From the NCBI RefSeq assembly GCF_037975245.1, contig NC_092575.1, forward strand, positions 28,979,341 to 29,043,340: 64,000 nucleotides of DNA, written 5' to 3'. The notes below the pieces were generated by a model, which was given only the letters and a program-made list of their open reading frames with translations, had not been told where the DNA came from and did not search any database. Positions 31,101 through 58,319 of the stretch are shown piece after piece (the stretch's first letter is position 1; every line of letters begins with the position of its first letter). The translations under genes were made by a program, and so were the position numbers. The stretch comes from Apostichopus japonicus (taxonomy: Eukaryota; Echinodermata; Holothuroidea; Aspidochirotida; Stichopodidae).

Positions 31101-34100
31101 ATACTACTTTTAACATAGAAGTGCTGATTCATACTACTTTTAGCCAGAAGTACTGATTCATACTACTTTTAACATAGAAGTACTGATTGATACATTTTGC
31201 TAGAAGTACTGATTCATACAACGGAAGTACTGATTCATACTACTTTTAACATGCAAATACTGATTCATACTACTTTTGGCTAGAAGTATTGATTCATACT
31301 ATTGAAGTACTGATTCATACTACTTTTAACATAGAAGTACTGATTCATACTACTTTTGGCTAGAAGTACTGATTCATACTATAGAAGTACTGATTCATAC
31401 TACTTTTAACAGAGAAGTCTGATTCATACTACTATTGGCCAGAAGTGCTGATTCATACTACTTTTAACATATAAGTACTGATTCATACTACTTTTTGCTA
31501 GAAGTACTGATTCATACAATGGAAGTACTGATTCATACTACTTTTAACATGCAAATACTGATTCATACTACTTTTGGCTACAAGCACTGATTCATACTAT
31601 TGAAGTACTGATTCATACTACTTTTAACATAGAAGTACTGATTCATAATACTTTTGGCTAGAAGTACTGATTCATACTATAGAAGTACTGATTCATACTA
31701 CTTTTAACATAGAAGTACTAATTCATACTACTTTTAACATAGAACTACTGATTCATACTTCTTTTGGCTAAAAGTACTGAATCATACTATTGAAATACTG
31801 ATTCATACTACTTTTAACATGTACTGATTTCATACTACTTTTTACATAGAAGTACTGATTCATACTACTATCGGCTAGAAGTACTGATTCATACTGTACA
31901 AGTACTGATTCATACTAAAGAAGTACTGATTCATACTACTTTTAATATAGAACTACTGATTCATACTTCTTTTGGCTAAAAGTACTGAATCATACTATTG
32001 AAATACTGATTCATACTACTTTTAACATGTACTGATTTCATACTACTTTTTACATAGAAGTACTGATTCATACTACTATCGGCTAGAAGTACTGATTCAT
32101 ACTGTACAAGTACTGATTCATACTACTTTTAACATAGAAGCATTGATTCATACTACTTTTTACATAGAAGTACTGATTCATACTAAAGAAGTACTGATTC
32201 ATGCTACTTTTGGCTAAAAGTACTGAAACTTTTTATTGAAATATTGATTCATACTACTTATAACATAGAAGTACTGATTCATACTACTTTTTACATAGAA
32301 GTACTGATTCATACTACTTTTTACATAGAAGTACTGATTCATACTACTATCGGCTAGAAGTACTGAGTCATACTATAGAAGTACTGATTCATACTACTTT
32401 TAACATAGAAGCACTGATTCATACTACTTTTTACATAGAAGTACTGATTCATACTAAAGAAGTACTGATTCATACTACTTTTAACATAGTAGTACTGATT
32501 CATACTACTTTTGGCTAAAAGTACTGAATCATACTTTTTATTGAAATATTGATTCATACTACTTTTAACATAGAAGTACCTGTACTGATTCATGCTATAG
32601 AAGCACTGATTCATACTACTTTTTACATAGAAGTACTGATTCATACTACTATTGGCTAGGAGTACTGATTCATACTACTTTTAACCTGCAAGTACTGATT
32701 CATACTACTTTTTACATAGAAGTACTGATTCATACTACTATCGACTAGAAGTACTGATTCATACTACTTTTGTCCTGCAAGTACTGATTCGAACTACTTT
32801 GGGCCTACAAGAATGCATTCATACTTACTATTGGCCTCAAAGTACTGAATCAGATTATATTAACCTTAAAGTATGATTCAGAGTACTTTAAACATCTAAG
32901 TACTGTTTCACACTTCATTAAGCCTAGAAGTACTGTTCCATACCATACCACTTTTAACATACTGTACAAGTACTATCCATACTACTTTTATCATACAACT
33001 CCTCTTCCATTCCACTTTAAACAAAAAAACTTCATACTACTTTCAACATACAAGTACTGTACCATGCTACAGTACATTTAACATAACAGTACTGTCCCAT
33101 ACTACTTTAACATACATGCACTACATGCACATCCCCACACATTCGGTGCCTTGAATGTAAAGGTGACTTGCTTATAATTACTATATGCAAGTAACCAGAA
33201 ACTATACTTGTTACCTTGGTATCATGATGCTTCCAGGCTACATGGCGATCTATTCTTATATACAGTGATGCTCACCCAATGCTTCATCTGGCCGCATCTG
33301 TAGCTTGTTTTTAAACCGATCATCCCCTTTCTGAGCAGTAGAGGAACCCACAAGGGCACTAGTCCTCTCCTTAGAGGAACAAGGATCACCACAACTAGAT
33401 GCAGAGTCAGGGTTAATATCAGACTTCGACTGCTCTTTGGAGGATTCTGTGAAGCAAAATATTTGTATCAGAAGTTGCTGCAGGTAACCAGAAAGCAAGA
33501 CACATATAAATTGCTCTGTATGTAACTGGAATTGCATAGACTCTATCTGCCTGTGGTTAAGGATAATTCATATAAACACCTATGTAAAACTCACTAACTG
33601 TCTAGTAGAACAGAAATGAGTTATCCTAAAGATGGAGGGGTACCAGAGTAACTTTCAAACCTGCTGTTTCTTCTGCAGATGTAGCCTCTTCCTCTTTAGC
33701 TCTCTTGTAATGCAAGCAAGGAATGGATGCCAGTGGAACTTTATGTTTCTAATGGGAAGAATATAAGAGACATTGAAAGGTTTTCATTGTGATCATTAAA
33801 TTCTGTGGTAAACTCACAGTAAGAAACTACATGTATCGAATAGAGCTTACAGGAGAGTTAAAACATACAAAGAACAGATCCTCTAGAAAGAAACCTTCAG
33901 TATGTTGCACCATCTCACCTCAATGAAATGTGGTAATCCCTTCTTGTACTACTGATTGGCTTGAGACTCTTACACAGTTGGTTAAATCAAGTAAAGACAT
34001 TTTCATGAAACCCAAAATAGCACTACCTGTATTGTAGGATGTATGTAAAGCAAAGATCAGTTTCCTAAAACCAATCTCTTTCTTTACCCTACCAAAGTCC

Positions 34101-37100
34101 CCAGGAATGAAAAGATAACCAAAACAAAAATGCAAAACAATATTGAAACATTTGTCATCTGAAGAAACAGTTTACAACTATTATTAAAAGGAATGGTTGT
34201 AACCACATTGATTCCTTCTTGGAGTGGTATAAGTCATGTGACCTGTTCCAACCTACAGTATTTACAGTTTACACATACCCGTACACATACCCATACACAT
34301 ACCATACAGTTACACATACCTGTACACATACCTGTACAGATACCCGTACAGTTTACACATACCTGTACAGATACCCGTACTGATACCCGTAAACATACCA
34401 TACAGTTACACATACCCGTACAGATACCCGTCCAGACACTTTACAGTTACACATACCCGTACAGATACCATACAGTTTACATATACCCGTAAACATACCA
34501 TACAGTTACACATACCCGTACAGATGCCCGTACAGATACCCGTACAGATACCCGTAAACATACCCGTACAGATACCCGTCCAGATACTATACAGTTACAC
34601 ATACCCGTACAGATACCATACAGTTTACATATACCCGTACAGATACTATACAGTTACACATATCCGTACACATACCTGTACAGATACCATACAGTTACAC
34701 ATACCCGTACAGATACCATACAGTTACGCATACCCGCACACATACCATACAATTACACATACCCGTACACATACCATACAGTTACACATACCCGTACACA
34801 ACCCGTACAGATACCATACAGTTGACACTTACCCGTACACAACCCATACAGATACCATACAGGTACGCATACCCGTACACATACCATACAATTACACATA
34901 CCCGTACACATACCATACAGTTACGCATACCCGTACACAACCTGTACAGATACCATACAGTTACGCATACCCGTACAGATACCATACAGTTACACATACC
35001 CATACAGATACCTGTACACATACCATACAGTTAAATATACCTGTACACATACCCTACAGATACCATACAGTTACACATACCTGTACACATACCATACAGT
35101 TACACATACCCGTACAGATCCAGGTCCTAGGAAGTAAGGTCTAGACCAAGTACAAACTCTGCTTGGTTTATGAATGTACACATCAATACCACTGCGATGA
35201 GTGATGGACATCCAGTTTTCAGGCAGCCCTTCAAGAGGCTCTCTGCCTCTCTCTAAAGGATAAAACATAAAGAAACTGACTGATCAGTAGTCTGATCAGT
35301 GATCAGACTAATAAAGTTACTTCACTGTTGTAGACCTCAAGTAGAATTGTACAACAAGATGGCTCCTCTCCTAAACAATGTCAACAGGCTTGTTGAATGT
35401 TAGCAAACTTGGAAGGAGTTGGACTACTATCTGAGGCACTTGAGGGTCACATGTTCCATACTAGTTCATACTAAGTCATGAAAGCTGCATTTGAGTTGCA
35501 GTTTGCACGATTCTGATGGCACCATGCCTAACTTTGAAAGCATAAATAATGCAAAATATTACATTTTCTTGGTGGACCAGACTTGCACAGGGAACAGTGG
35601 AATTAGCCAAACTTTTCAAAGGTTGCCAAAAAAAACAGTGAAAGATGAAATCTATCAGACACAAAATTTGTTGTATTTGGTGACGATCTGACTTATTGAG
35701 AACAGACAAGTGGCTGTAACCAAGTAGATCTCTAAATTCAATGAAAGTGTACAATTATGATTGAATACTGCAGAACATGGCTTGGTAGTAGATCCCTAAG
35801 TTCAATAGAAGTGTATCAATTATGATTGAATACTGCAGAACATGGCTTGGTAGTAGATCTCTAAGTTCAATAGAAGTGTACAATTATGATTGAATACTGC
35901 AGAACATGGCTTGGTAGTAGATCTCTAAGTTCAATAGAAGTGTACAATTATAATTGAATACTGCAGAACATAGCTTGGTAGTAGATCCCTAAGTTCAATA
36001 GAAGTGTATCAATTATGATTGAATACTGCAGAACATGGCTTGGTAGTAGATCCCTAAGTTCAATAGAAGTGTATCAATTATGATTGAATACTGCAGAACA
36101 TGGCTTGGTAGTAGATCTCTAAGTTCAATAGAAGTGTACAATTATGGTTGAATACTGCAGAACATAGCTTGGTAGTAGATCCCTAAGTTCAATAGAAGTG
36201 TATCAATTATGATTGAATACTGCAGAACATGGCTTGGTAGTAGATCTCTAAGTTCAATAGAAGTGTACAATTATGATTGAATACTGCAGAACATGGCATG
36301 GTAGTAGATCTCTAAGTTCAATAGAAGTGTACAATTATAATTGAATACTGCAGAACATAGCTTGGTAGTAGATCCCTAAGTTCAATAGAAGTGTATCAAT
36401 TATGATTGAATACTGCAGAACATGGCTTGGTAGTAGATCCCTAAGTTCAATAGAAGTGTACAATTATAATTGAATACTGCAGAACATAGCTTGGTAGTAG
36501 ATCCCTAAGTTCAATAGAAGTGTACAATTATAATTGAATACTGCAGAATAGAAGTGTACAATTATGATTGAATACTGCAGAACATGGCATGGTAGTAGAT
36601 CTCTAAGTTCAATAGAAGTGTACAATTATAATTGAATACTGCAGAACATGGCTTGGTAGTAGATCTCTAAGTTCAATAGAAGTGTATCAATTATGATTGA
36701 ATACTGCAGAACATGGCTTGGTAGTAGATCCCTAAGTTCAATAGAAGTGTACAATTATAATTGAATACTGCAGAACATAGCTTGGTAGTAGATCCCTAAG
36801 TTCAATAGAAGTGTATCAATTATGATTGAATACTGCAGAACATGGCTCTAAGTTCAATAGAAGAGTACAATTATAATTGAATACTGCAGAATAGAAGTGT
36901 ACAATTATGATTGAATACTGCAGAACATGGCATGGTAGTAGATCTCTAAGTTCAATAGAAGTGTACAATTATAATTGAATACTGCAGAACATGGCTTGGT
37001 AGTAGATCTCTAAGTTCAATAGAAGTGTATCAATTATGACTGAATACTGCAGAACATGGCTTGGTAGTAGATCTCTAAGTTCAATAGAAGTGTATCAATT

Positions 37101-40100
37101 ATGATTGAATACTGCAGAACATGGCTTGGTAGTAGATCTCTAAGTTCAATAGAAGTGTATCAATTATGACTGAATACTGCAGAACATGGCTTGGTAGTAG
37201 ATCCCTAAGTTCAATAGAAGTGTATCAATTATGACTGAATACTGCAGAACATGGCTTGGTAGTAGATCTCTAAGTTCAATAGAAGTGTATCAATTATGAT
37301 TGAATACTGCAGAACATGGCTTGGTAGTAGATCTCTAAGTTCAATAGAAGTGTACAATTATTATTGAATACTGCAGAACATGGCTTGGTAGTAGATCCCT
37401 AAGTTCAATAGAAGTGTATCAATTATGACTGAATACTGCAGAACATGGCTTGGTAGTAGATCTCTAAGTTCAATAGAAGTGTATCAATTATGACAGAATA
37501 CTGCAGAACATGGCTTGGTAGTAGATCTCTAAGTTCAATAGAAGTGTATCAATTATGATTGAATACTGCAGAACATGGCTTGGTAGTAGATCTCTAAGTT
37601 CAATAGAAGTGTACAATTATTATTGAATACTGCAGAACATGGCTTGGTAGTAGATCCCTAAGTTCAATAGAAGTGTATCAATTATGATTGAATACTGCAG
37701 AATAGAAGTGTACAATTATGATTGAATACTGCAGAACATGGCTTGGTAGTAGATCTCTAAGTTCAATAGAAGTGTACAATTATTATTGAATACTGCAGAA
37801 CATGGCTTGGTAGTAGATCCCTAAGTTCAATAGAAGTGTATCAATTATGACTGAATACTGCAGAACATGGCTTGGTAGTAGATCCCTAAGTTCAATAGAA
37901 GTGTATCAATTATGATTGAATACTGCAGAACATGGCTTGGTAGTAGATCTCTAAGTTCAATAGAAGTGTACAATTATTATTGAATACTGCAGAACATGGC
38001 TTGGTAGTAGATCTCTAAGTTCAATAGAAGTGTACAATTATTATTGAATACTGCAGAACATGGCTTGGTAGTAGATCCCTAAGTTCAATAGAAGTGTATC
38101 AATTATGACTGAATACTGCAGAACATGGCTTGGTAGTAGATCCCTAAGTTCAATAGAAGTGTATCAATTATGACTGAATACTGCAGAACATGGCTTGGTA
38201 GTAGATCCCTAAGTTCAATAGAAGTGTATCAATTATGACTGAATACTGCAGAACATGGCTTGGTAGTAGATCCCTAAGTTCAATAGAAGTGTATCAATTA
38301 TGACTGAATACTGCAGAACATGGCTTGGTAGTAGATCCCTAAGTTCAATAGAAGTGTATCAATTATGACTGAATACTGCAGAACATGGCTTGGTAGTAGA
38401 TCTCTAAGTTCAATAGAAGTGTATCAATTATGATTGAATACTGCAGAACATGGCTTGGTAGTAGATCTCTAAGTTCAATAGAAGTGTACAATTATTATTG
38501 AATACTGCAGAACATGGCTTGGTAGTAGATCCCTAAGTTCAATAGAAGTGTATCAATTATGACTGAATACTGCAGAACATGGCTTGGTAGTAGATCTCTA
38601 AGTTCAATAGAAGTGTACAATTATTATTGAATACTGCAGAACATGGCTTGGTAGTAGATCCCTAAGTTCAATAGAAGTGTATCAATTATGACTGAATACT
38701 GCAGAACATGGCTTGGTAGTAGATCCCTAAGTTCAATAGAAGTGTATCAATTATGACTGAATACTGCAGAACATGGCTTGGTAGTAGATCTCTAAGTTTA
38801 ATAGAAGTGTATCAATTATGATTGAATACTGCAGAACATGGCTTGGTAGTAGATCTCTAAGTTCAATAGAAGTGTACAATTATTATTGAATACTGCAGAA
38901 CATGGCTTGGTAGTAGATCCCTAAGTTCAATAGAAGTGTATCAATTATGATTGAATACTGCAGAACATGGCTTGGTAGTAGATCCCTAAGTTCAATAGAA
39001 GTGTATCAATTATGACTGAATACTGCAGAACATGGCTTGGTAGTAGATCTCTAAGTTCAATAGAAGTGTACAATTATTATTGAATACTGCAGAACATGGC
39101 TTGGTAGTAGATCTCTAAGTTCAATAGAAGTGTATCAATTATGATTGAATACTGCAGAACATGGCTTGGTAGTAGATCCCTAAGTTCAATAGAAGTGTAT
39201 CAATTATGACTGAATACTGCAGAACATGGCTTGGTAGTAGATCCCTAAGTTCAATAGAAGTGTACAATTATAATTGAATACTGCAGAACATGGCAATAGT
39301 TACAACCTTAAGCAAATACAGCTGTAAGACAACAAGAATTTCTCCTAGTATTGTAAATAAACATAGGACTTACTTTTAAGAACTATTTTATCTCTGACTG
39401 ATATAACACCTTGTTCCCTATCCTCCTCTGCTGGCTCCCTCACTTTACTCCTCACAAAAACATCATTATTTTTCTCCTCTCCATTGACTGTCCTCTTCTT
39501 TCCCTTGTTATCCACCTGCTGCCTGAGTTCTTTCTCCAGAAGATCGTCAATATCGATGTCGATGTCGGAATCATCAGAGTGCATCTCCATCTCTTTGATT
39601 CCAACTGCTTCTTCTTCTTGTTCATTTTGGTTACTGACATTAGGTAGGTGCAATGCAGATGCAGGCTTTGGGCTTTTATCTTCTTCAGTGTTCATCTCTT
39701 CAAGCAAATCTTGATTTTCTGACATGATTGTCTTTTCTTGTACAGAAGGAAGGCTCTGTTTGTTCACTGCTGCATTGTTTAAGAGTGTATCCTGTTGGGT
39801 TGCTGCACCAGTTTTGTTACTGTTCTGTGTTCCACCCGAGACTGTTGTTTCTTTTGCACCCCTCTCTACACCACTGAGATTGGTAGATGACAACAAATTT
39901 TGTTCAGACGTTTCTTTACTGTTTAATGTATCCATTTGTTCCAAGTTACCCTTGACAAAGTGATCAACGTTCTCTACTAATTTAATGTCATTTTGTCTTG
40001 ATAGTGGCAATACAACTTGTTCCTTGTCCAAAATGGAACTTCCTTTGTTGTGAGTGTTCATGGCCAGAGGAGTGAGTGTGCTTGGTGATGCTGATGACTT

Positions 40101-41821
40101 CATCCCAGAAGATAAATTTGTATCTGGTCTGCCTGAAGCCCACTGTCTACTTGGCAGTCTTTCACTAAGTGGATTTGCAGCCTTTAACACAAAATTTGTC
40201 TGGTTTAAAAGATCTAGCTCTCCTTTCAAATCTTTGCGTGGTAAATCAAATTGTTCAATGCAGTCCCCATCTTTTGGTAATGTGATGCTTGTGGCATAGG
40301 CTTTAATTGGTCTTTCTTTCTGAGAACCCTTTGAAAGTCTCTGATTTAGTGAAGGCTTAACACTACTAAGAGTTTTGGTTGTAGTGGAGTGTCCATCCTG
40401 CCCACTTTGCTCAAACAACTCAAACACATCTGAGGTAGGTTTATCTGAGAGTGAAGTGCATGTAGACCTCCATTCAGTGTCCATGTTTGAGAGGGCAGAA
40501 TGTCCAGATGATACCAAACCCTCTGGGATGTCTACCTGATCAGCAGTAGCATTTGGAATTTTGTGTGAATATGAAGTAACAGGTGTTGAGTTTGTGTCAT
40601 CTAGAGAATCTAGAGAACTAATTACCGGAGCCAGAATCAATAACTGTTGCTTAGAAGAAGCACATGTATTTTGAGTACCTGTGTACACAATGGTTGTTGA
40701 TGGAAGGGAATTCTGAACCAAGTCTGCATCCATGTGCTGGGGCTGAGACATGATGGTGGCACTACCCTTTGATGGTGATATAGTTTTAAGAATGTCAGAA
40801 GGAAACTGATGAATTCTTCCCTGGCTCGCAGAGGTCCCACGTTCATCTGTCAATGATGCCCCCATATCTGATCCAATCGATACTTGGATTGGTTGAGGGT
40901 CAGAACTCACTCCTATTACTTGTAAAGCATCAGTGGGTTTTGTGTGGCTTACCTGTTTGGAGAAACCAGTAGTCTCTGCTGTTTCCTTGAGCAATAATTC
41001 CTCCTGGCTGCATTCACTGTCTGTATCAAACAAGTTATCACGTTCTAAAACCTCTGTTTTTAAGAAGGTATCCAGTTTAAGAGATGAACGTTCAGATGTG
41101 ATGCAAGGAATTACTTTGTCAGTACTAGCAGGCTGTTGTGATGTTCTTTGTCTATGATCAGGTTGTTTATCACTCAATTCTTCTTTTACAACCACTGGGA
41201 GTGTCATATTTTGCTTAATGACACATAATTCTGAAGATGATGTGCACTGGTCTATATCTGAATCACTTTCATCAAAGGAAAAGGGTGAAGGCATTGATGA
41301 AGAAGTACTTTCTACAAAACTGAAGGTGTAAGGTTGGCTAATAGATGATTCAGTTGAGGAAGTTCCTGGAATGTCTCTTCCTTGGTTTGCATAAGATGTT
41401 TTCCTCCTTTTAAAAGATTTGGAAGAACTAGAGTTTGGCAAGTTTGAAGATGTTCCATCCGGCTCATCAATTGTTCCAACTATTTCAGGATGATGCATAA
41501 GATCATTGGATGTTCCTTCACCAAGTAAGAATAAATCATCTGCCCATGAAAACGTTTCACTCTGTGCATACGCCCCGATGGATGCAGGATTTTCTGGCAT
41601 GGCATGGTGACCAAAGTGATTCAATTCGTCAAACTCAGATGGCATTGCTGTGTTGATGCCCTCATAGTCAAGAAGAGATTGATGTTGAAGGGAGAGAGGG
41701 TTGTTGCGAAGCTGAGATTTGGATGATGATGATGATGAAGCCTTAAGGTTCTCATTTAGAGACTTTGGTTGGTTGAACCCTTGCATCCTAGTATGATCCA
41801 TCAGATGCTTAAATGAACAGT
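13125..41821 (-). CDS. dgcr8: DGCR8/Pasha, Microprocessor complex subunit (16 coding exons)
   Basis: DGCR8 binds primary microRNA hairpins in the nucleus and guides Drosha cleavage. The joined exons give 1,275 residues from the ATG at 41,801; human DGCR8 has 773. Residues 1-745 are mostly Ser/Thr-rich and low complexity. An acidic [15 protein letters not shown] motif and a basic GKKR patch (746-772) match the segment before the human WW domain. The WW-like region is at about 819-849 (WSRPYFLG). IPCLHYK contains Cys868, at the position of the heme-ligating cysteine of human DGCR8. dsRBD1 is at about 1018-1090 and dsRBD2 at about 1126-1195. The Drosha-binding helix is at about 1226-1255. All splice phases agree and every intron is GT/AG. 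The extra length is almost all in the first large exon. A 5' untranslated exon must lie beyond 41,821 and was not found. Confidence 0.97.
13764..13889 (-). CDS. dgcr8: dgcr8 exon 15 (Drosha-binding tail)
   Basis: The acceptor is CCTACCAAATAG (a weak pyrimidine tract) and the donor is GTAAGA. It encodes [20 protein letters not shown] then [20 protein letters not shown] and QN. It aligns with [20 protein letters not shown] then LQEEMKRLAEER, the C-terminal helix of human DGCR8 that contacts Drosha. Phase 0 on both sides. Confidence 0.93.
13917..14590. repeat. 48-bp minisatellite (GGTTAACTAGGTATCATGAT), intron 14
   Basis: Fourteen copies with a constant 48-base period, containing CCACGTACGGAGTTAGGTGT. 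The left edge is only about 27 bases from the acceptor of dgcr8 exon 15. The array therefore occupies the place where the branch point would be expected. The 283-codon plus-strand frame over it is an artefact of the period being divisible by three. Confidence 0.95.
14790..16200. repeat. 31-bp minisatellite (TATTATCTGGACCTCTATTA), intron 14
   Basis: About 45 copies of a 31-base unit ending in TCCTGATCTTA. Variants include ATAATCC for ATTATCC, TTTTATT for TATATTA, and missing triplets. Blocks of several units recur, as expected from unequal exchange. Confidence 0.95.
16511..16594 (-). CDS. dgcr8: dgcr8 exon 14
   Basis: The acceptor is TTTCCTGTAG and the donor is GTAAGA. It encodes [20 protein letters not shown] then TEISKAKK, aligning with [20 protein letters not shown] of human DGCR8 just after dsRBD2. 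Phase 0 on both sides. Confidence 0.95.
17493..17549 (-). CDS. dgcr8: dgcr8 exon 13 (dsRBD2, last helix)
   Basis: The acceptor is GACATCTTCAG and the donor is GTAAGA. It encodes [19 protein letters not shown], aligning with GWCKNKRVGKQLASQKILQ, the RNA-contacting helix of dsRBD2 in DGCR8. Phase 0 on both sides. Confidence 0.95.
17700..18165. repeat. diverged tandem duplication rich in GGGCCC/TGGTCCCAAAA, intron 12
   Basis: Two diverged halves share ATGTACCAACTACTAACCAA (second copy ATGTACCAGCTATTGACCAA) and the following lines, about 350 bp apart. Many GGCCCAAAT and GGTCCCAAAA motifs occur. A similar GGGCCCAAAA-rich patch occurs near 10,680-10,750, so this is probably a dispersed repeat. Confidence 0.5.
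19063..19162 (-). CDS. dgcr8: dgcr8 exon 12 (dsRBD2 core)
   Basis: The acceptor is TTGCTTTTAG and the donor is GTGAGT. It encodes [20 protein letters not shown] then [13 protein letters not shown], the beta-sheet part of dsRBD2 ([20 protein letters not shown] in human). It leaves in phase 0. Confidence 0.94.
19428..19528 (-). CDS. dgcr8: dgcr8 exon 11 (start of dsRBD2)
   Basis: The acceptor is TGTGTTATAG and the donor is GTATAT. It encodes [20 protein letters not shown] then [13 protein letters not shown]. It aligns with [20 protein letters not shown] then LLSPYQILHECLKR of human DGCR8. It leaves in phase 2. Confidence 0.96.
19630..20418. repeat. 60-bp minisatellite (AACTTGATAACTGCATCAGT), intron 10
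   Basis: About 13 copies, with a period of exactly 60 over most of the array. Variants alternate between GGATATCCCTATTCTTAACC and GGATACTCCTAGTCTTAGTC, and the pattern suggests duplication of multi-unit blocks. The first unit carries an insertion. Confidence 0.95.
20668..21147. repeat. 69-bp minisatellite (CAGATATGTTTATATATCTG), intron 10
   Basis: Seven copies, of which two lack the GGTTAACTA segment. Each unit holds two small palindromes (CAGATAT ... ATATCTG and GTAGGTTAACTAC). A transcript of the array could therefore form a row of short hairpins. Confidence 0.92.
21430..21506 (-). CDS. dgcr8: dgcr8 exon 10 (end of dsRBD1, linker)
   Basis: The acceptor is TATAATTAG and the donor is GTGAGA. 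It encodes [20 protein letters not shown] then DNSME, matching [20 protein letters not shown] of human DGCR8. It enters in phase 1 and leaves in phase 0. Confidence 0.95.
21870..22650. repeat. 73-bp minisatellite (GACTGTTTGGTTGGTCTGAC), intron 9
   Basis: About ten and a half copies. Variants differ in ACAGCTTCAG versus ACAGATTCAG and in CGTTAGGC versus CGTTTAGGC. The CAGACTGTTTGGTTGGTCTG core is an imperfect inverted repeat. Confidence 0.95.
22751..22849 (-). CDS. dgcr8: dgcr8 exon 9 (dsRBD1 core)
   Basis: The acceptor is TTTATTTCCAG and the donor is GTAACT. It encodes [20 protein letters not shown] then [12 protein letters not shown]. These are the beta strands and the KKxAK helix of a double-stranded RNA-binding domain. 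It aligns with [20 protein letters not shown] and the following SSKKLAKNKA of human DGCR8. Confidence 0.97.
23642..23743 (-). CDS. dgcr8: dgcr8 exon 8 (dsRBD1, first part)
   Basis: The acceptor is TCTTTCAACAG and the donor is GTAAGT. It encodes [20 protein letters not shown] then [13 protein letters not shown]. It aligns with [20 protein letters not shown] of DGCR8, the start of dsRBD1 including its first helix. Phase 1 on both sides. Confidence 0.96.
24028..24120 (+). pseudogene. tRNA-like sequence (SINE head or tRNA pseudogene)
   Basis: TGGGTCAGGTGGTAGAGTGC resembles a box A/D-arm and GATTCAATTCCC resembles box B. A CTGGG/CCTAG stem brackets an anticodon-like loop. An extra repeated GGTCACCTAG segment spoils the fold between the anticodon and T arms. 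I consider it a tRNA-derived repeat rather than a working tRNA. Confidence 0.4.
24185..25640. repeat. 36-bp minisatellite (AGCAGTATACCCTCACTTAT), intron 7
   Basis: About 40 copies with a period of about 36 bases, alternating GTTGTAAGC and GTTGTTAGC forms. The right part (after about 24,890) is less regular, with copies of the TTAGTTATAATATCATT type. A higher-order pattern of about 180 bases recurs there. The long open frame over it is an artefact of the period being divisible by three. Confidence 0.95.
25777..25843 (-). CDS. dgcr8: dgcr8 exon 7
   Basis: The acceptor is AAACTATTTCAG and the donor is GTGAGA. It encodes [20 protein letters not shown] and KK, matching the short PANQKLITLSVQDAPTKK stretch before dsRBD1 in vertebrates. 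It enters in phase 0 and leaves in phase 1. Confidence 0.92.
26015..27490. repeat. 52-bp minisatellite (TATCATTTCCATTTCACAGC), intron 6
   Basis: About 28 copies with unit lengths of 50-53 bases. Variants include CACAGCAGG versus CATTGCAGG, and CAATAAG versus CAAACAAG. On the plus strand each unit ends in a splice-acceptor-like CATTTCACAG, but the host gene is read from the other strand. Open frames across the array are artefacts. Confidence 0.95.
27656..28001. mobile_element. inverted-repeat element with 53-bp termini, dgcr8 intron 6
   Basis: The arms at 27,656-27,708 and 27,949-28,001 start CCCACTTACCTGT and are inverted copies with two mismatches over 53 bases. Between them lie about 240 bases with no coding frame. 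It resembles a MITE or fold-back element. I found no clear target-site duplication, so the family is open. Confidence 0.8.
28278..28347 (-). CDS. dgcr8: dgcr8 exon 6
   Basis: The acceptor is TTCTTTCCAG and the donor is GTAAGA. It encodes [20 protein letters not shown] and PQL, aligning with the basic RTWAERRQFNREMKRKQ segment of vertebrate DGCR8. It enters in phase 2 and leaves in phase 0. Confidence 0.95.
28385..28940. repeat. degenerate repeat (CATGAACAATTATACAACTA), intron 5
   Basis: Roughly fifteen diverged units of 30-45 bases built on ATGAACAATTATACAACTAT and GTGTTGTTTTC. It is more diverged than the other arrays in this gene and fills most of a short intron. Confidence 0.85.
29228..29297 (-). 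CDS. dgcr8: dgcr8 exon 5
   Basis: The acceptor is CATCTTATAG and the donor is GTGAGT. It encodes [20 protein letters not shown] and KF, aligning with the [20 protein letters not shown] segment of vertebrate DGCR8 that leads into dsRBD1. It enters in phase 1 and leaves in phase 2. Confidence 0.95.
29668..30060. repeat. 39-bp minisatellite (ACTATGGATGTCTCTATGGC), intron 4
   Basis: Ten tandem copies with a period of 39 bases. Because 39 is divisible by three and the unit lacks stops, several frames stay open across the array on both strands. These frames are artefacts and not genes. Confidence 0.95.
30690..30905 (+). pseudogene. reverse transcriptase remnant (non-LTR) in dgcr8 intron 4
   Basis: The plus strand reads VTCGVPQG, a stop, [14 protein letters not shown], and after a second stop [19 protein letters not shown]. 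These are the GVPQGSxLGPLLFxxYINDL and YADD boxes of LINE reverse transcriptases. It carries two stops and is cut off on both sides. It lies antisense to the host gene. Confidence 0.8.
30960..33115. repeat. 30-bp minisatellite (GTACTGATTCATACTACTTT), intron 4
   Basis: About 2.1 kb of alternating GAAGTACTGATTCATACTAC and TTTTAACATA or TTTTGGCTA segments, with frequent partial units. Copies are most regular in the middle and decay at the right end (after about 32,780), where point changes and spacing differences accumulate. No other intron has this unit. Confidence 0.95.
33276..33446 (-). CDS. dgcr8: dgcr8 exon 4 (linker)
   Basis: The acceptor is GCTTCACAG and the donor is GTGAGC. It encodes a hydrophilic Ser/Lys/Asp linker ending [14 protein letters not shown], corresponding to the poorly conserved linker between the heme region and the dsRNA-binding domains. 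The intron between exons 3 and 4 is only 214 bases and is one of the few without an array. Confidence 0.9.
33661..33748 (-). CDS. dgcr8: dgcr8 exon 3 (IPCLHYK, heme-ligand cysteine)
   Basis: The acceptor is CCCATTAG and the donor is GTTTGA (a weak consensus, but the phase and homology require it). It encodes [20 protein letters not shown] and then an acidic run. The Pro-Cys pair is the heme-ligand site of DGCR8 (Cys352 in human). It leaves in phase 1. Confidence 0.95.
34262..35118. repeat. ACCCGTACAGATACC-type array, intron 2; overlaps the splice donor
   Basis: Degenerate short tandem units alternate CACATACCCGTACAGATACC and CATACAGTTACACATACC over about 850 bp. On the gene's strand the unit reads TCTGTACGGGTATGTGTAAC. 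That is the end of exon 2 (TCTGTACGG) joined to its donor (GTATGTGTAAC), so dozens of donor-like copies lie directly downstream of the real one. Confidence 0.9.
35110..35252 (-). CDS. dgcr8: dgcr8 exon 2 (WW / heme-region exon)
   Basis: The acceptor is ATCCTTTAG and the donor is GTATGT. The exon codes for [20 protein letters not shown], then the segment with [16 protein letters not shown], which aligns closely with the WW-like part of the DGCR8 RNA-binding heme domain used for dimerisation. It enters in phase 1 and leaves in phase 0. The last exon bases and the donor are themselves the unit of the tandem array that fills the start of the next intron. Confidence 0.96.
35695..39295. repeat. 65-bp minisatellite (GAATACTGCAGAACATGGCT), intron 1
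   Basis: About 55 copies over 3.6 kb. Unit classes differ by TATCAATTATGATTG, TATCAATTATGACTG, TACAATTATTATTG and TACAATTATAATTG, and by GATCTC versus GATCCC. Truncated units (for example near 36,545, 36,895 and 37,700) mark old rearrangements. The array ends about 80 bases from the donor of the large exon. Confidence 0.97.
39374..41821 (-). CDS. dgcr8: dgcr8 exon 1 of the coding set (large N-terminal exon)
   Basis: An acceptor TTTGTTTTCACAG ends at 41,822 and the donor GTAAGT begins at 39,373. The open frame continues upstream of the acceptor, but I start at the ATG at 41,801 (MDHTRMQ), because the codons before the acceptor read like intron. It encodes residues 1-809 plus one base. The protein is rich in Ser, Thr, Asp and Gln and has no folded domain that I recognise. 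It ends with an acidic/basic segment and KIVLK, matching KTVLK before the human WW region. An upstream exon could add residues, because the frame stays open from the acceptor to the ATG. Confidence 0.92.
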
Positions 41822-41822
41822 C

Positions 41823-43021
41823 TGTGAAAACAAATGATTGCCAATTAAATTCTACACAAGAAAATGCACGAACCAACAGGACATACTAATTCTGCTGTGT
41901 TTATCAAAGCTAACCGCACTATAACTCAATGTTGACAGCAAATATGAATTTCTGTTCTGTAACAATTTACTATCACAAATTCAGTGTTGAACAAATAAAG
42001 CAAGACTGTGGGAGCAAATTGTTACTAAGTTCTGATTTGACATTAAAAGAATACTGTAGCTCATTCAGAGGTCCTTATCAGTTAGTTAACCCCAAAAATA
42101 TGAAATAACACTACACAGAGGCATATCTCATCTGGTTTGCAGGTTGATAGAAAATGATCCAAATATTCCAAAAACTTCAAAAGTACAAACATGGTGATAA
42201 TGCCGCATTCACTAAGTATCATACTTCAAACCTGGGCTGAACATTATACCCACTAGAACATCATTGTAAGTAATAAACTTGTTGAACTATTAAAGCCTTC
42301 AAAAGATGATCTGAAATATTATTATACTATAATGGCTAGGAAGGTTTTCTGGAACAGGGCCAACAGAAAGTAACTTTGTGACTTCAAAAACCTGCTCCTT
42401 CCACAAATGAATTTTGGAAAGTGGTCACTGTATTCCAAGGATATTGCAGTCAACCTGTAAAACAGATAAGTAAACAGTTTTGTGTAGTCATATTTTGCAG
42501 TTCTTTACACAAGAAGCAAGTGTGGGAATTATAAGTCATATGGGTTAATGAACTGAAACCAGCATCGTACTGTAAATGCTTTACAGATGAGGACTATTAA
42601 AACATGAAATCAATGAATGTACCTTCTTTCTGTTCCCAAAGCTGCAATTTTAGTAATGAGGAAACCAAGCAGTGGCAGGCTAGATATTTCTGTCCTGGTA
42701 GAACCCTATTCACACATTATCACCATAAGATACATCCTTTCTCATCTGTTGACCTTTCAAAAAAAGGTAAGAAAACAATGTCAGCATTGCTAACAAACAG
42801 CATATCACTTTTAATTCAAACCTATCAACCAGCGTTAAATTACTGTACTATACAGGACTACACTGGACTTGTAAACCTGACTACACATGTTCGATTCCTG
42901 TCCTATAGAAAGCTTATCTGCCCTTTCATATTTGGTAACAATGTCCCAGTCAAACTTCCATTGTTCATTTACTTACACACAAACTTAATTTCCCTTAAAG
43001 TCACATCCTGTCAATTTCTAG
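41823..43021. other. no gene recognised; upstream of the dgcr8 large exon
   Basis: This should be intron or 5' sequence of dgcr8. I see no conserved coding exon. A 147-codon plus-strand frame (42,604-43,047) has no recognisable motif and runs into the satellite array, so I leave it out. Confidence 0.4.
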
Positions 43022-46000
43022 ATCAAATAATGCACTGTGGCTCTTGACTGGCACCACTCAGCATAGAAATGACTATGTAAGGATCAAATAATGCATTGTG
43101 GCTCCTTACTGGCACCACTCAGCACAAAAATGACTATGTAAGGATCAAATAATGCATTGTGGCTCCTTACTGGCACCACTCAGCACAAAAATGACTATGT
43201 AAGGATCAAATAATGCATTGTGGCTCCTTACTGGCACCACTCAGCACAAAAATGACTATGTAAGGATCAAATAATGCATTGTGGCTCCTTACTGGCACCA
43301 CTCAGCACAAAATGACTATGTAAGGATCAAATAATGCATTGTGGCTCCTTACTGGCACCACTCAGCACAAACATGACTATGTAAGGATCGAATAATGCAT
43401 TGTGGCTCCTTACTGGCACCACTCAGCACAACCATGACTATGTAAGGATCGAATAATGCATTGTGGCTCCTTACTGGCACCACTCAGCACAAACATGACT
43501 ATGTAAGGATCGAATAATGCATTGTGGCTCCTTACTGGCACCACTCAGCACAAACATGACTATGTAAGGATCGAATAATGCATTGTGGCTCCTTACTGGC
43601 ACCACTCAGCACAAACATGACTATGTAAGGATCGAATAATGCATTGTGGCTCCTTACTGGCACCACTCAGCACAAACATGACTATGTAAGGATCGAATAA
43701 TGCATTGTGGCTCCTTACTGGCACCACTCAGCACAAACATGACTATGTAAGGATCGAATAATGCATTGTGGCTCCTTACTGGCACCACTCAGCACAAACA
43801 TGACTATGTAAGGATCGAATAATGCATTGTGGCTCCTTACTGGCACCACTCAGCACAAACATGACTATGTAAGGATCGAATAATGCATTGTGGCTCCTTA
43901 CTGGCACCACTCAGCACAAACATGACTATGTAAGGATCGAATAATGCATTGTGGCTCCTTACTGGCACCACTCAGCACAAAAATGACTATGTAAGGATCG
44001 AATAATGCATTGTGGCTCCTTACTGGCACCACTCAGCACAAACATGACTATGTAAGGATCGAATAATGCATTGTGGCTCCTTACTGGCACCACTCAGCAC
44101 AAAAATGACTATGTAAGGATCGAATAATGCATTGTGGCTCCTTACTGGCACCACTCAGCACAAACATGAATATGTAAGGATCGAATAATGCATTGTGGCT
44201 CCTTACTGGCACCACTCAGCACAAACATGACTATGTAAGGATCGAATAATGCATTGTGGCTCCTTACTGGCACCACTCAGCACAAACATGACTATGTAAG
44301 GATCGAATAATGCATTGTGGCTCCTTACTGGCACCACTCAGCACAAACATGACTATGTAAGGATCGAATAATGCATTGTGGCTCCTTACTGGCACCACTC
44401 AGCACAAACATGACTATGTAAGGATCGAATAATGCATTGTGGCTCCTTACTGGCACCACTCAGCACAAAAATGACTATGTAAGGATCGAATAATGCATTG
44501 TGGCTCCTTACTGGCACCACTCAGCACAAACATGACTATGTAAGGATCGAATAATGCATTGTGGCTCCTTACTGGCACCACTCAGCACAAAAATGACTAT
44601 GTAAGGATCGAATAATGCATTGTGGCTCCTTACTGGCACCACTCAGCACAAACATGAATATGTAAGGATCGAATAATGCATTGTGGCTCCTTACTGGCAC
44701 CACTCAGCACAAACATGAATATGTAAGGATCGAATAATGCATTGTGGCTCCTTACTGGCACCACTCAGCACAAACATGACTATGTAAGGATCGAATAATG
44801 CATTGTGGCTCCTTAGTGGAACCATTCTGCATAGAAATGGCTATGTAAGGATCGAATAATGCATTGTGGCTCCTTAGTGGAACCACTCAGCACAAACATG
44901 ACTATGTAAGGATCGAATAATGCATTGTGGCTCCTTACTGGCACCACTCAGCACAAACATGACTATGTAAGGATCGAATAATGCATTGTGGCTCCTTACT
45001 GGCACCACTCAGCACAAACATGACTATGTAAGGATCGAATAATGCATTGTGGCTCCTTACTGGCACCACTCAGCACAAACATGACTATGTAAGGATCGAA
45101 TAATGCATTGTGGCTCCTTATTGGAACCATTCTGCATAGAAATGACTATGTAAGGATCCAATAATGCATTGTGGCTCCTTACTGGCACCACTCAGCACAA
45201 ACATGACTATGTAAGGATCGAATAATGCATTGTGGCTCCTTACTGGCACCACTCAGCACAAACATGACTATGTAAGGATCAAATAATGCATTGTGGCTCC
45301 TTACTGGCACCACTCAGCACAAACATGACTATGTAAGGATCGAATAATGCATTGTGGCTCCTTACTGGCACCACTCAGCACAAACATGACTATGTAAGGA
45401 TCGAATAATGCATTGTGGCTCCTTACTGGCACCACTCAGCACAAAAATGACTATGTAAGGATCGAATAATGCATTGTGGCTCCTTACTGGCACCACTCAG
45501 CACAAACATGACTATGTAAGGATCGAATAATGCATTGTGGCTCCTTACTGGCACCACTCAGCACAAACATGACTATGTAAGGATCGAATAATGCATTGTG
45601 GCTCCTTACTGGCACCACTCAGCACAAACATGACTATGTAAGGATCGAATAATGCATTGTGGCTCCTTACTGGCACCACTCAGCACAAAAATGACTATGT
45701 AAGGATCGAATAATGCATTGTGGCTCCTTACTGGCACCACTCAGCACAAACATGACTATGTAAGGATCGAATAATGCATTGTGGCTCCTTACTGGCACCA
45801 CTCAGCACAAAAATGACTATGTAAGGATCGAATAATGCATTGTGGCTCCTTACTGGCACCACTCAGCACAAACATGAATATGTAAGGATCGAATAATGCA
45901 TTGTGGCTCCTTACTGGCACCACTCAGCACAAACATGACTATGTAAGGATCGAATAATGCATTGTGGCTCCTTACTGGCACCACTCAGCACAAACATGAA

Positions 46001-47112
46001 TATGTAAGGATCGAATAATGCATTGTGGCTCCTTACTGGCACCACTCAGCACAAACATGACTATGTAAGGATCGAATAATGCATTGTGGCTCCTTACTGG
46101 CACCACTCAGCACAAACATGACTATGTAAGGATCGAATAATGCATTGTGGCTCCTTAGTGGAACCATTCTGCATAGAAATGGCTATGTAAGGATCGAATA
46201 ATGCATTGTGGCTCCTTACTGGCACCACTCAGCACAAACATGACTATGTAAGGATCGAATAATGCATTGTGGCTCCTTACTGGCACCACTCAGCACAAAC
46301 ATGACTATGTAAGGATCGAATAATGCATTGTGGCTCCTTACTGGCACCACTCAGCACAAACATGACTATGTAAGGATCGAATAATGCATTGTGGCTCCTT
46401 ACTGGCACCACTCAGCACAAACATGGCTATGTAAGAATCAAATAATGCATTGTGGCTCCTTACTGGCACCACTCAGCACAAACATGACTATGTAAGGATC
46501 AAATAATGCATTGTGGCTCCTTACTGGCACCACTCAGCATAGAAATGGCTATGTAAGGATCAAATAAGGCATTGTGGCTCCTTATTGGCACCACTCAGCA
46601 CAAACATGACTATGTAAGGATCAAATAATGCATTGTGGCTCCTTATTGGAACCATTCTGCATAGAAATGGCTATGTAAGGATCAAATAAGGCATTGTGGC
46701 TCCTTACTGGCACCACTCAGCACAAACATGACTATGTAAGGATCAAATAATGCATTGTGGCTCCTTAGTGGCACCACTCAGCATAGAAATGATTATGTAA
46801 GGATCAAATAATGCATTGTGGCTCCTTACTGGCACCACTCAGCACAAACATGACTATGTAAGGATCAAATAATGCATTGTGGCTCCTTATTGGAACCATT
46901 CTGCATAGAAATGGCAATGTAAGGATCAAATAAGGCATTGTGGCTCCTTATTGGCACCACTCAGCACAAACATGACTATGTAAGGATCAAATAATGCATT
47001 GTGGCTCCTTACTGGCACCACTCAGCACAAACATGACTATGTAAGGATCAAATAATGCATTGTGGCTCCTTATTGGCACCACTCAGCATAGAAATGGCTA
47101 TGTAAGGATCAA
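43022..47112. repeat. 61-bp satellite-like array (AATGCATTGTGGCTCCTTAC)
   Basis: About 67 copies over 4.1 kb. Central units are nearly identical (GGATCGAATAATGC and CACAAACATGACTATGTAA). Units at both edges share GGATCAAATAATGC and often CATAGAAATG, and a CCATTCTGCATAGAAATG variant unit is interspersed. The pattern fits homogenisation from the centre, with older variants at the edges. Confidence 0.97.
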
Positions 47113-55437: not shown

Positions 55438-55726
<289 letters not shown>

Positions 55727-55875: not shown

Positions 55876-56969
55876 AGTCGTGAAGTCACAAAATCCGTGT
55901 CCCTAGATTGAGATCCGAAGTACAGGGGATAATGTCAGAGCCTGATGATCTCATATTCTGTATACAGTACAAATGCGTCTGTTTGTTATTAACTTCATTT
56001 CGTGTTCACTCGACCGTTGAACAGCTATATAGGTTGGTAAACAGACTTGATTAAAATCGTGTTGGTAAGATATATATAACCACCTAAAGTTGCGGTACTT
56101 AAATCACACTATGGAGTACTTGTGTTTCGGTGCAGACGTTATATATGCGCATTTGGTACTGTGATATAACAACTGGAGACGATAGAATATGTAAAGGATA
56201 TGTGCGTCACAACTTTAAAGTAAGTAATTAGTAAGTTCGTTAACACGGTGGCAACCATTGGCTTTACTGTCGGAGGAATGTATCTTACATTGAATGTACT
56301 TACGCCTACTGATGTATGGTCTATGGAGTTTAAGAATCTATATGTCACTTTAGACTGCCGACGCTCACTGTAATACTCGCACTGGTAATGCCGGTTGATA
56401 AACATAACATTTATGAAATTTATTTGTTCTTGTAACGCACTTGATCGGCAGCAAAACTTGTGGATTTTATTTAGCTCTGAGAAACTTTATGACGCTATAT
56501 GATTAGCATGATGTTGACTCTGATTACAACAAGAAGCGCAGATGTAAAGAAATACTAAGTGAATTTTCGAGATCTGATGATTTGAAGTGCGGTCACAAAA
56601 AAACTTAACAGGCGTTACAGAAGTACCGAGTTCACTATAGATGTTTAAATGATTTATACATCGAAAAACACAATATCCTTCTTAATACTTATTGAATATG
56701 TGTGTTAACACGGCTGCTCATGCCGTAATAGTAGGCCTCGCTCAATTAATGTTATCATATCTTCATACATAGACTGTAGCTATATATGTGAAATTGACAC
56801 CCGTTTAACTAGAGGCGAGTAACCGTAGACACCATTGTCCGTCACAGCAGCATTTCATGGGCCATCTTATTGATTCCAGATTTCAGCCTCTTCAGTCACC
56901 ATACGTTCATTGAAGACGAGAGTATTGGCTAGAACTGTCTGGTTTTACGTAGGCCATTAAGAATTTAAA
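55876..56969. other. no gene recognised; upstream of the GPCR
   Basis: No coding exon is seen. This stretch should contain the promoter and 5' untranslated region of the GPCR, but no clear core element stands out. An in-frame TAA at 56,958-56,960 closes the frame just before the GPCR start. Confidence 0.4.
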
Positions 56970-58319
56970 ATGACGTCATCACTTCCGTCAGTGGCATCAA
57001 GTACTCGTGATTCATCTACAGAATACATCACGTTGCCTCCTGTACTCTTAGGTACGTACTTCATACTTGCAGTCGTCACGATATTTGGCAACGCTCTGGT
57101 CATCATAAGTTACGTAATAGACCGCTCGATCCGCCGAAGCACTGCTAATGCTTACATCTTTAATTTAGCAGTCGCAGACTTTTTCGTCGGTGTCTTTGAC
57201 TTACTCGCAACATTCATATGGGCTGTTTCTGGTGGTTCCCTAAGCCCTGTATTTATTCCCTGCTTTTTGTGGGGTTGCCTTCAACATGCAATGACGCTCT
57301 TTTCTGCGATAGCTGTTGCATTTCTTAGCTGGGACCGGTACAAACTCGTCTCTGACGCTCTTATTTACATACGTGACCAAACTCCAAAGAAAGCAATGGT
57401 CAGATCTCTCATCGCCTGGTTCTTCGTCATTCTCTACGTCACCGTAGTCCACACTATGGGAATCATTTTTAGTGCTTCTCTGGGCGCTGGTTGCATACAA
57501 AGTAAAATTCCAAGGAAGGTTATCTTAGTTTCTTTCTTTCCAGATTTTCTGATTCCATTGTCTATTACTGTGGTGTTAAATGTAAGCGTTCTTTTAGCCT
57601 TAAGGAGAAGAACATTGGCTAGAATAGAAGAACAAATAGGGCATCATAAGGCTCGAAGATCAATGGGTTACTCAACGAATGATGCTGTGAAGTCTGGTAC
57701 AAGCAACTCTGAATCTTCGAGGGGCCAAGTCAATGGAAACGCAAACATACAAGGTGAACTAAGGATCAGCAACGAAACGCTGTTTGACACAGAAGGATTC
57801 GAGATCCAAAATTCGGTAGAAAACAGATCAACGGTGAACAAAACGGCTGGTAATTCAATTACGGAGATTAGTACCCAAAACCACGAAGACTCTTCATCTG
57901 CGACAAAGGACAATGTTACTAACCGAGCAGACAGTCTCTGTGAAAGTAAGTCTGAGCTGCGACTTTCACATAACATGAAATCCACAGTACGGAATACTAC
58001 ATTAAATGGGAGTAAAGAAAATATACAAAACCTTGAGAAGAAGGAAGATATTCCTAAGGAGGCATTGCGAGAACGCAAAAAGTTGTTGAAGGTTGTTAAG
58101 GCCTTGATCGTTTTTACACTAATTTATATTGCCTGCTGGATTCCTTTCTATGTAGTGTCTTTCTTATCGTTAATAAAGTCCGATCTCAATCCCTGGGCGT
58201 TCTACATAGGCGCATTAATATTGGCTTCTAATTCAGCAATCAATCCTTTTATTTATGCAGTCATGAGTATGAAATTTAGGAACAGATTCATTTTAATTTC
58301 AAAGTGCAAATTTAAGTAA
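56970..58319 (+). CDS. orphan class A (rhodopsin-like) GPCR, intronless
   Basis: The product is 449 residues with seven membrane segments and is likely a plasma-membrane receptor. Visible class A marks are GN at 40-41 (TM1), NLAVAD at 65-70 (TM2), Cys98 and Cys175 for the extracellular disulfide, WDRY at 121-124 (TM3 end) and Trp150 (TM4). Further marks are Pro196 (TM5), CWIP at 389-392 (TM6) and NPFIY at 425-429 (TM7). Intracellular loop 3 is long (about 214-368) and Ser/Asn-rich, as in muscarinic and histamine H3-type receptors. The position of the amine-binding Asp in TM3 (3.32) is Gln105, so a classical amine ligand is unlikely. An in-frame TAA lies 12 bases before the ATG. The C-terminal tail is very short and ends KCKFK. 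No ligand is assigned. Confidence 0.93.
   Translation: MTSSLPSVASSTRDSSTEYITLPPVLLGTYFILAVVTIFGNALVIISYVIDRSIRRSTANAYIFNLAVADFFVGVFDLLATFIWAVSGGSLSPVFIPCFLWGCLQHAMTLFSAIAVAFLSWDRYKLVSDALIYIRDQTPKKAMVRSLIAWFFVILYVTVVHTMGIIFSASLGAGCIQSKIPRKVILVSFFPDFLIPLSITVVLNVSVLLALRRRTLARIEEQIGHHKARRSMGYSTNDAVKSGTSNSESSRGQVNGNANIQGELRISNETLFDTEGFEIQNSVENRSTVNKTAGNSITEISTQNHEDSSSATKDNVTNRADSLCESKSELRLSHNMKSTVRNTTLNGSKENIQNLEKKEDIPKEALRERKKLLKVVKALIVFTLIYIACWIPFYVVSFLSLIKSDLNPWAFYIGALILASNSAINPFIYAVMSMKFRNRFILISKCKFK

Follow-up and report, generated by a model that had tools for sequence, protein, structure and literature searches.

What happens when a 5′ splice site is copied in tandem some sixty times beside the exon that it serves, where do the copies come from, and does the gene pay for them? 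These questions are raised by the dgcr8 gene in a 64,000-nt stretch of the Apostichopus japonicus genome (G000:C15:28979341-29043340, from an assembly of 671.6 Mb in 35 contigs), referred to below as the window. A minisatellite on the minus strand takes in the last 10 bases of dgcr8 exon 2 together with the donor of intron 2. The array is genuine and lies where an earlier note, made from the letters of this DNA, had placed it, and the end of the exon with its donor appears, on good sequence support, to have seeded it. The locus is a clear example of a multiplied 5′ splice site, with fifteen copies as good by U1 pairing, beside a strongly conserved exon.

Organization of the array at the exon 2/intron 2 boundary

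The gene lies on the minus strand. The model covers the last part of exon 1 together with exons 2-7, which ordinary splice sites link into a single open frame. The features around the boundary are as follows.

35110..35252, minus strand: dgcr8 exon 2, start of what we take to be the Rhed/WW-like region of DGCR8, ending ..FLGPGSVR
35110..35119, minus strand: exonic part of the repeat, ATCTGTACGG, with 11 recurrences in the array and none elsewhere in the window
35104..35109, minus strand: native 5′ splice site GTATGT, phase 0, placed by the gap-free protein junction; U1 duplex -9.5 kcal/mol
34262..35119, minus strand: minisatellite, apparently donor-seeded, with ~61 units beyond the exon, chiefly GTATGTGTAACTGTATG and GTAT(C/G)TGTACGG
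33749..35109, minus strand: dgcr8 intron 2, 1361 nt, from the gene model
33661..33748, minus strand: dgcr8 exon 3, from the gene model and protein alignment

The identity of the gene is clear from phmmer searches, in which the exon 2 open frame matches DGCR8 PDB chains (E 1e-16) and spliced exons 2-7 match human DGCR8 (6v5b_C, E 1.3e-39). The exon 2/3 junction aligns without a gap, GSVR/KHK (the slash marking the junction) corresponding to human GSIR-KHD. Exon 2, read on the minus strand from 35252 to 35110, ends in GGATCTGTACGG, and the intron starts at 35109 with GTATGTGTAACTGTATGG.

The widest rows of Tandem Repeats Finder place the array at 34270-35116, and reading of the letters sets its edges at ~34262 and ~35119. 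The array is imperfect, and segmentation of its intronic part gives 61 units, with 19 of 17 nt, four of 18 nt and 38 belonging to two 12-nt types. All 11 further copies of the exon end ATCTGTACGG lie within the array, and neither strand of the window holds another. GTATGTG is present 25 times in the array with the native donor counted, in every case preceded by G. The "dozens" of GGGTATGTG given in the earlier note is somewhat high, this string occurring 13 times with the native donor included. A profile test of the exon/array match against one consensus found a run of only 7 bases, the array having two 12-nt unit types, and exact recurrence was adopted in its place.

Origin of the repeat unit

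The 21-base core unit GGTATGTGTAACTGTATGGTA, searched genome-wide with up to one mismatch, has 14 matches (8 exact), every one of them in the dgcr8 array, and its reversed control has one match in the genome. The unit is therefore not found away from dgcr8; its presence elsewhere was the observation that, according to the earlier note, would speak against seeding by this splice site. A BLAST-type search outside the locus returned at least nine rows at at least eight places with 67-77% identity, and the seven of eight places inspected all contain different units. One of those seven, in PARG, is a second donor-seeded array. A transposable or dispersed origin of the dgcr8 unit was considered and rejected, the core unit being confined to the locus.

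The ten exonic bases that recur in the copies code for residues with conserved counterparts in human DGCR8, and these bases should therefore predate the array. With the core unit local and the exonic bases conserved to human, the natural direction of copying would be from exon to array. Chance is not a sensible account of the match between exon and array.

Predicted consequences of using later donor copies

Every GT was scored by its duplex with the 5′ end of U1 (ViennaRNA), using the letters that we take to be those of the U1 5′ end, and the translation was followed to the end of exon 3 only. Sixteen sites pair with U1 at or below the native value, the native site and 15 later copies, and among them the native donor alone is in frame and free of stops. 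The nearest copy with better pairing than the native donor is the following.

35080 (first intron base), minus strand: CAG/GTATGTGT, offset +29, U1 duplex -10.2 kcal/mol

Splicing from this copy leaves the frame open through exon 3 but shifted. In-frame reading into the array encounters a stop after 12 codons. The only in-frame open GTs are those at -6, +6, +12, +21 and +33, and all are weak (-5.1 to -1.9 kcal/mol). The suggestion that several copies keep the frame open is unconfirmed by this per-copy scoring, none of the 15 strong later copies being both in frame and stop-free. The further proposal that a later donor could add residues to the conserved heme region, which we take to be that of the DGCR8 Rhed domain, fails, since strong copies are frameshifted or lie behind the stop and the in-frame GTs are weak. 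The earlier interpretation is in this sense half right, seeding being supported and the extra residues not. The frame consequences favor the first donor as the one in use.

The RNA of the array is predicted to fold much better than its shuffles (z -12.7, 20 shuffles). Masking of the decoys by RNA structure was rejected as an explanation, as the native donor does not consistently exceed the other copies in accessibility.

Other donor-start arrays in the genome

Arrays were sought genome-wide as three donor motifs in a row, and the 5′ flanks were read for the arrays of the donor motifs. The MAGGTATGT scan gave 185 matches compared with 50 for the reversed motif. The matches listed (to C14:2754061) comprise 16 arrays; the control forms 8 over that stretch of the genome and 16 genome-wide. 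The 5′ flank was read for 16 of 16, and five arrays start at an exon donor.

PARG array: PF05028, E 1.3e-36 across the junction
C2H2 finger gene array: fingers continue in the next exon; the gene presumably resembles ZNF143
RWD exon array: E 1.5e-5
Calbindin/secretagogin-type EF-hand exon array: E 2e-11, next exon seen
L069 array: exon without homology

The MAGGTRAGT scan gave 74 matches compared with 142 for the reversed motif, resolving into 18 arrays and 11 loci of one dispersed unit, the latter left out of the 18 examined. Four of the 18 start at an exon donor.

Saf4/Yju2 array: PF04502, E 2.8e-12
Fy-3 array: PF10154, E 7.8e-11
L075 and L078 arrays: without Pfam match

Nine of the 34 arrays examined thus start at a donor, six backed by homology and three (L069, L075 and L078) unproven; the remaining 25 were judged by eye over 200-260 nt upstream. 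By eye, L077 may have a short first exon, and the array edge of L064 may lie beyond the stretch read. Within the nine, between 4 and 28 exact bases of the exon end recur in the array, recurrence being weakest in RWD, where it stops after 4 exact bases, and in PARG, where 4 are exact and 11 match if mismatches are allowed. The dgcr8 array is one of several donor-side cases in the genome and is not unique. Minisatellite turnover touches splice sites often enough for simple genome scans to detect it.

In two of the unproven arrays the spacing of the copies follows the reading frame. Among the later donors that equal or exceed the first in strength, 19 of 19 in the stretch read of L069 and four of four in that of L075 fall at multiples of three, with the frame open there. 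The L069/L073 locus (G000:C14:2751200-2756500) has a 30-nt unit with later strong donors in frame, each of which would give ~10 extra residues. L075 (G000:C2:13555000-13556700) has an in-frame unit of 33 nt, and 28 exonic nt are repeated in its array. At L084 (G000:C10:509950-511650) the array ends, judged by eye, a few bases from the apparent acceptor of an opposite-strand exon, a possible acceptor-side neighbor.

A codon-use exon score of at least 5 bits is reached by 8 of 34 arrays and by 10 of 37 donor-like motifs outside arrays at the same loci, and dgcr8 exon 2 itself scores only 0.7 bits. The score is passed by six of the nine donor-start arrays and two of the 25 others, the nine having been picked by eye beforehand. 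The score did not separate arrays from background, and the recurrence accordingly relies on the homology-backed cases.

Relation to known boundary-spanning repeats

The dgcr8 array is a minisatellite located at a 5′ splice site; it spans the exon-intron boundary with a unit of 10 exonic nt plus donor, the boundary being backed by the protein alignment, and its copies carry splice signals. It belongs to a known kind, the boundary-spanning "mirage" repeats. The original paper on the lancelet mirages is said to be Canestro 2002, and Turri 1995 reportedly described the human IFI6 (6-16) minisatellite as providing multiple splice donors.

Passages of PMC3087553 describe mirages as tandem repeats spanning exon-intron boundaries in lancelet Adh3 and in the globins BflGb6 and BflGb9, to which those of PMC3902484 add PGBD5 and troponin C. 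According to passages in both, the Adh3 units measure 10-72 bp, duplication of either boundary is possible and splicing remains regular. The dgcr8 array shares with these the boundary-spanning repeat, but it lies in another gene and has ~61 short units in two length classes, and the published statement on splicing concerns the lancelet genes. The human IFI6 minisatellite has two downstream units that act as donors and produce different isoforms, as part of PMC4526556 reports; the title on this multiple-donor minisatellite is also cited in PMC2572611, where the reference list names it. In IFI6 as in dgcr8 the minisatellite sits at a 5′ splice site and its repeats carry additional donor sequences. 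The IFI6 downstream units make isoforms, whereas splicing from the strong later copies of dgcr8 would shift the frame or run into a stop, and strong frame-keeping downstream donors of the IFI6 type are not found at dgcr8. Tandem repeats in human segmental duplications change exon-intron structure, as described in part of PMC2812944. There, as at dgcr8, a minisatellite expands within a gene, altering gene structure and capable of activating splice sites; those cases change exons or create introns, and the dgcr8 array keeps the existing junction. Beyond the lancelets, IFI6 and PMC2812944, a check at the level of titles recognized no boundary-spanning repeats in the literature, and none in DGCR8 was apparent by title among the matches listed, other genes not having been searched by name.

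Interpretation of the dgcr8 array

In a genome rich in repeats, the array is in all likelihood a by-product of minisatellite turnover that the gene tolerates. By the lancelet definition it is a mirage of the donor side. The minisatellite would have arisen from the exon 2/intron 2 boundary of dgcr8 when the last ~10 exon bases and the donor were tandemly duplicated, through slippage or unequal exchange, and the duplicates would then have been amplified into the 12-nt and 17-18-nt unit types. The copy adjoining the exon would stay the working 5′ splice site and the remaining copies would be intronic decoys, transcripts made from strong later copies being frameshifted or stop-bearing and thus presumably removed. 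Provided the first copy is used, the array probably has little effect and most likely no selected function. A regulatory role is much less likely.

Several points weigh against this interpretation. The direction of seeding is argued from protein conservation and not from an array-free outgroup, and use of the first donor is something we infer. The accessibility of the native donor ranks 14, 4 and 7 of 25 at pairing spans of 60, 120 and 250, and the automated exon score does not distinguish donor-start arrays from donor-like motifs outside arrays.

A broader view would see donor-seeded arrays as a recurrent genome-wide class (dgcr8, PARG, Yju2) that yields in-frame extensions in some genes (30 nt in L069, 33 nt in L075) and expression-throttling decoys in others such as dgcr8. 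This is unlikely; if it were true, splicing would continually gain variation from the turnover of repeats at splice sites. At dgcr8 itself the later copies might act as a rheostat, producing frameshifted or stop-bearing mRNAs that decay, so that repeat number would tune the level of DGCR8. The 15 later copies that match or beat the native U1 pairing, the nearest at +29 and none with an in-frame open product, speak in its favor. However, the published lancelet mirages are said, in the passages cited above, to leave splicing undisturbed, and the six homology-backed donor-start arrays (nine with the unproven ones) lie in unrelated genes, as expected of a by-product. We regard tuning of DGCR8 as very improbable. 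The choice of the spliceosome among adjacent near-identical donors becomes directly testable on natural alleles.

Minisatellites in this genome could instead be seeded preferentially by splice donors, for example via U1 or R-loop effects, and here the two motifs disagree. For MAGGTATGT the matches listed are in favor, with 16 arrays compared with 8 for the reversed motif over the same stretch, the more so as the reversed motif, 4.4 times as frequent in single copies (65,617 for TGTATGGAM, 14,957 for MAGGTATGT), forms fewer arrays. For MAGGTRAGT the 74 matches fall short of the 142 of the reversed motif, and the matches listed to C15:8604061 hold 15 arrays (21 with the dispersed unit) compared with 14 in the control, many control rows being counted by position without letters. 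Single motifs in that part number 26,642, against 31,450 reversed. Each motif has one reversed control, and motif and control occur together at two arrays, one at C2:15031717 and one near 8.60 Mb on C15. The window holds 19 merged arrays of at least 100 bp, amounting to 32% of its length. Of the seven located from the exon 1 donor to the region beyond exon 7, a single one crosses a splice site, and the other six are 63-368 nt away from the closest such site. Across the two motifs the counts do not consistently favor donors as seeds; arrays arise at donors, but not demonstrably above other places, and preferred seeding is hardly to be credited.

The earlier idea of an isoform generator, in which later copies are used and residues added near the heme region, has a precedent in the two IFI6 units that act as donors, according to part of PMC4526556; at dgcr8 the out-of-frame or stop-blocked strong copies and the weak in-frame open GTs largely refute it and leave it almost no credence. 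That the array existed beforehand, came to the boundary by insertion and matches the exon by chance is barely conceivable even in a window so rich in arrays, given a core unit found at the dgcr8 locus only, an exon suffix absent elsewhere in the window and conserved exon residues.

Additional features of the window and genome

The upstream part of the gene model is a long open frame without a Pfam match.

39374..41885, minus strand: open frame taken as the N-terminal exon (exon 1) of dgcr8, ending at the exon 1 donor with last exon base 39374

The largest array of the window has a 61-bp unit repeated 67 times (43021-47110), and a (TCA)96 trinucleotide repeat with 100% matches occupies 55438-55726. 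A rhodopsin-type G protein-coupled receptor is encoded at 56961-58319 by a single open frame of 452 amino acids (PF00001, E 9.2e-33).

Elsewhere in the genome, the dispersed unit set aside in the MAGGTRAGT scan is AAGGTGAGTGCTAGGGGGG, arrayed at 11 loci (on C3, C5, C7, C16, C19 and C22), a dispersed minisatellite family with a consensus donor. The TGTATGGAM control, with strand counts of 26,417 and 39,200, probably belongs to an abundant interspersed repeat. On contig C35 (40-1380) a COX1 match reads through 11 in-frame TGA codons, TGA being read as sense in animal mitochondria in general. Five partial COX1 matches with in-frame TGA are also present on C29 (14745-31219), perhaps copies of mitochondrial DNA or a rearranged mitochondrial contig.
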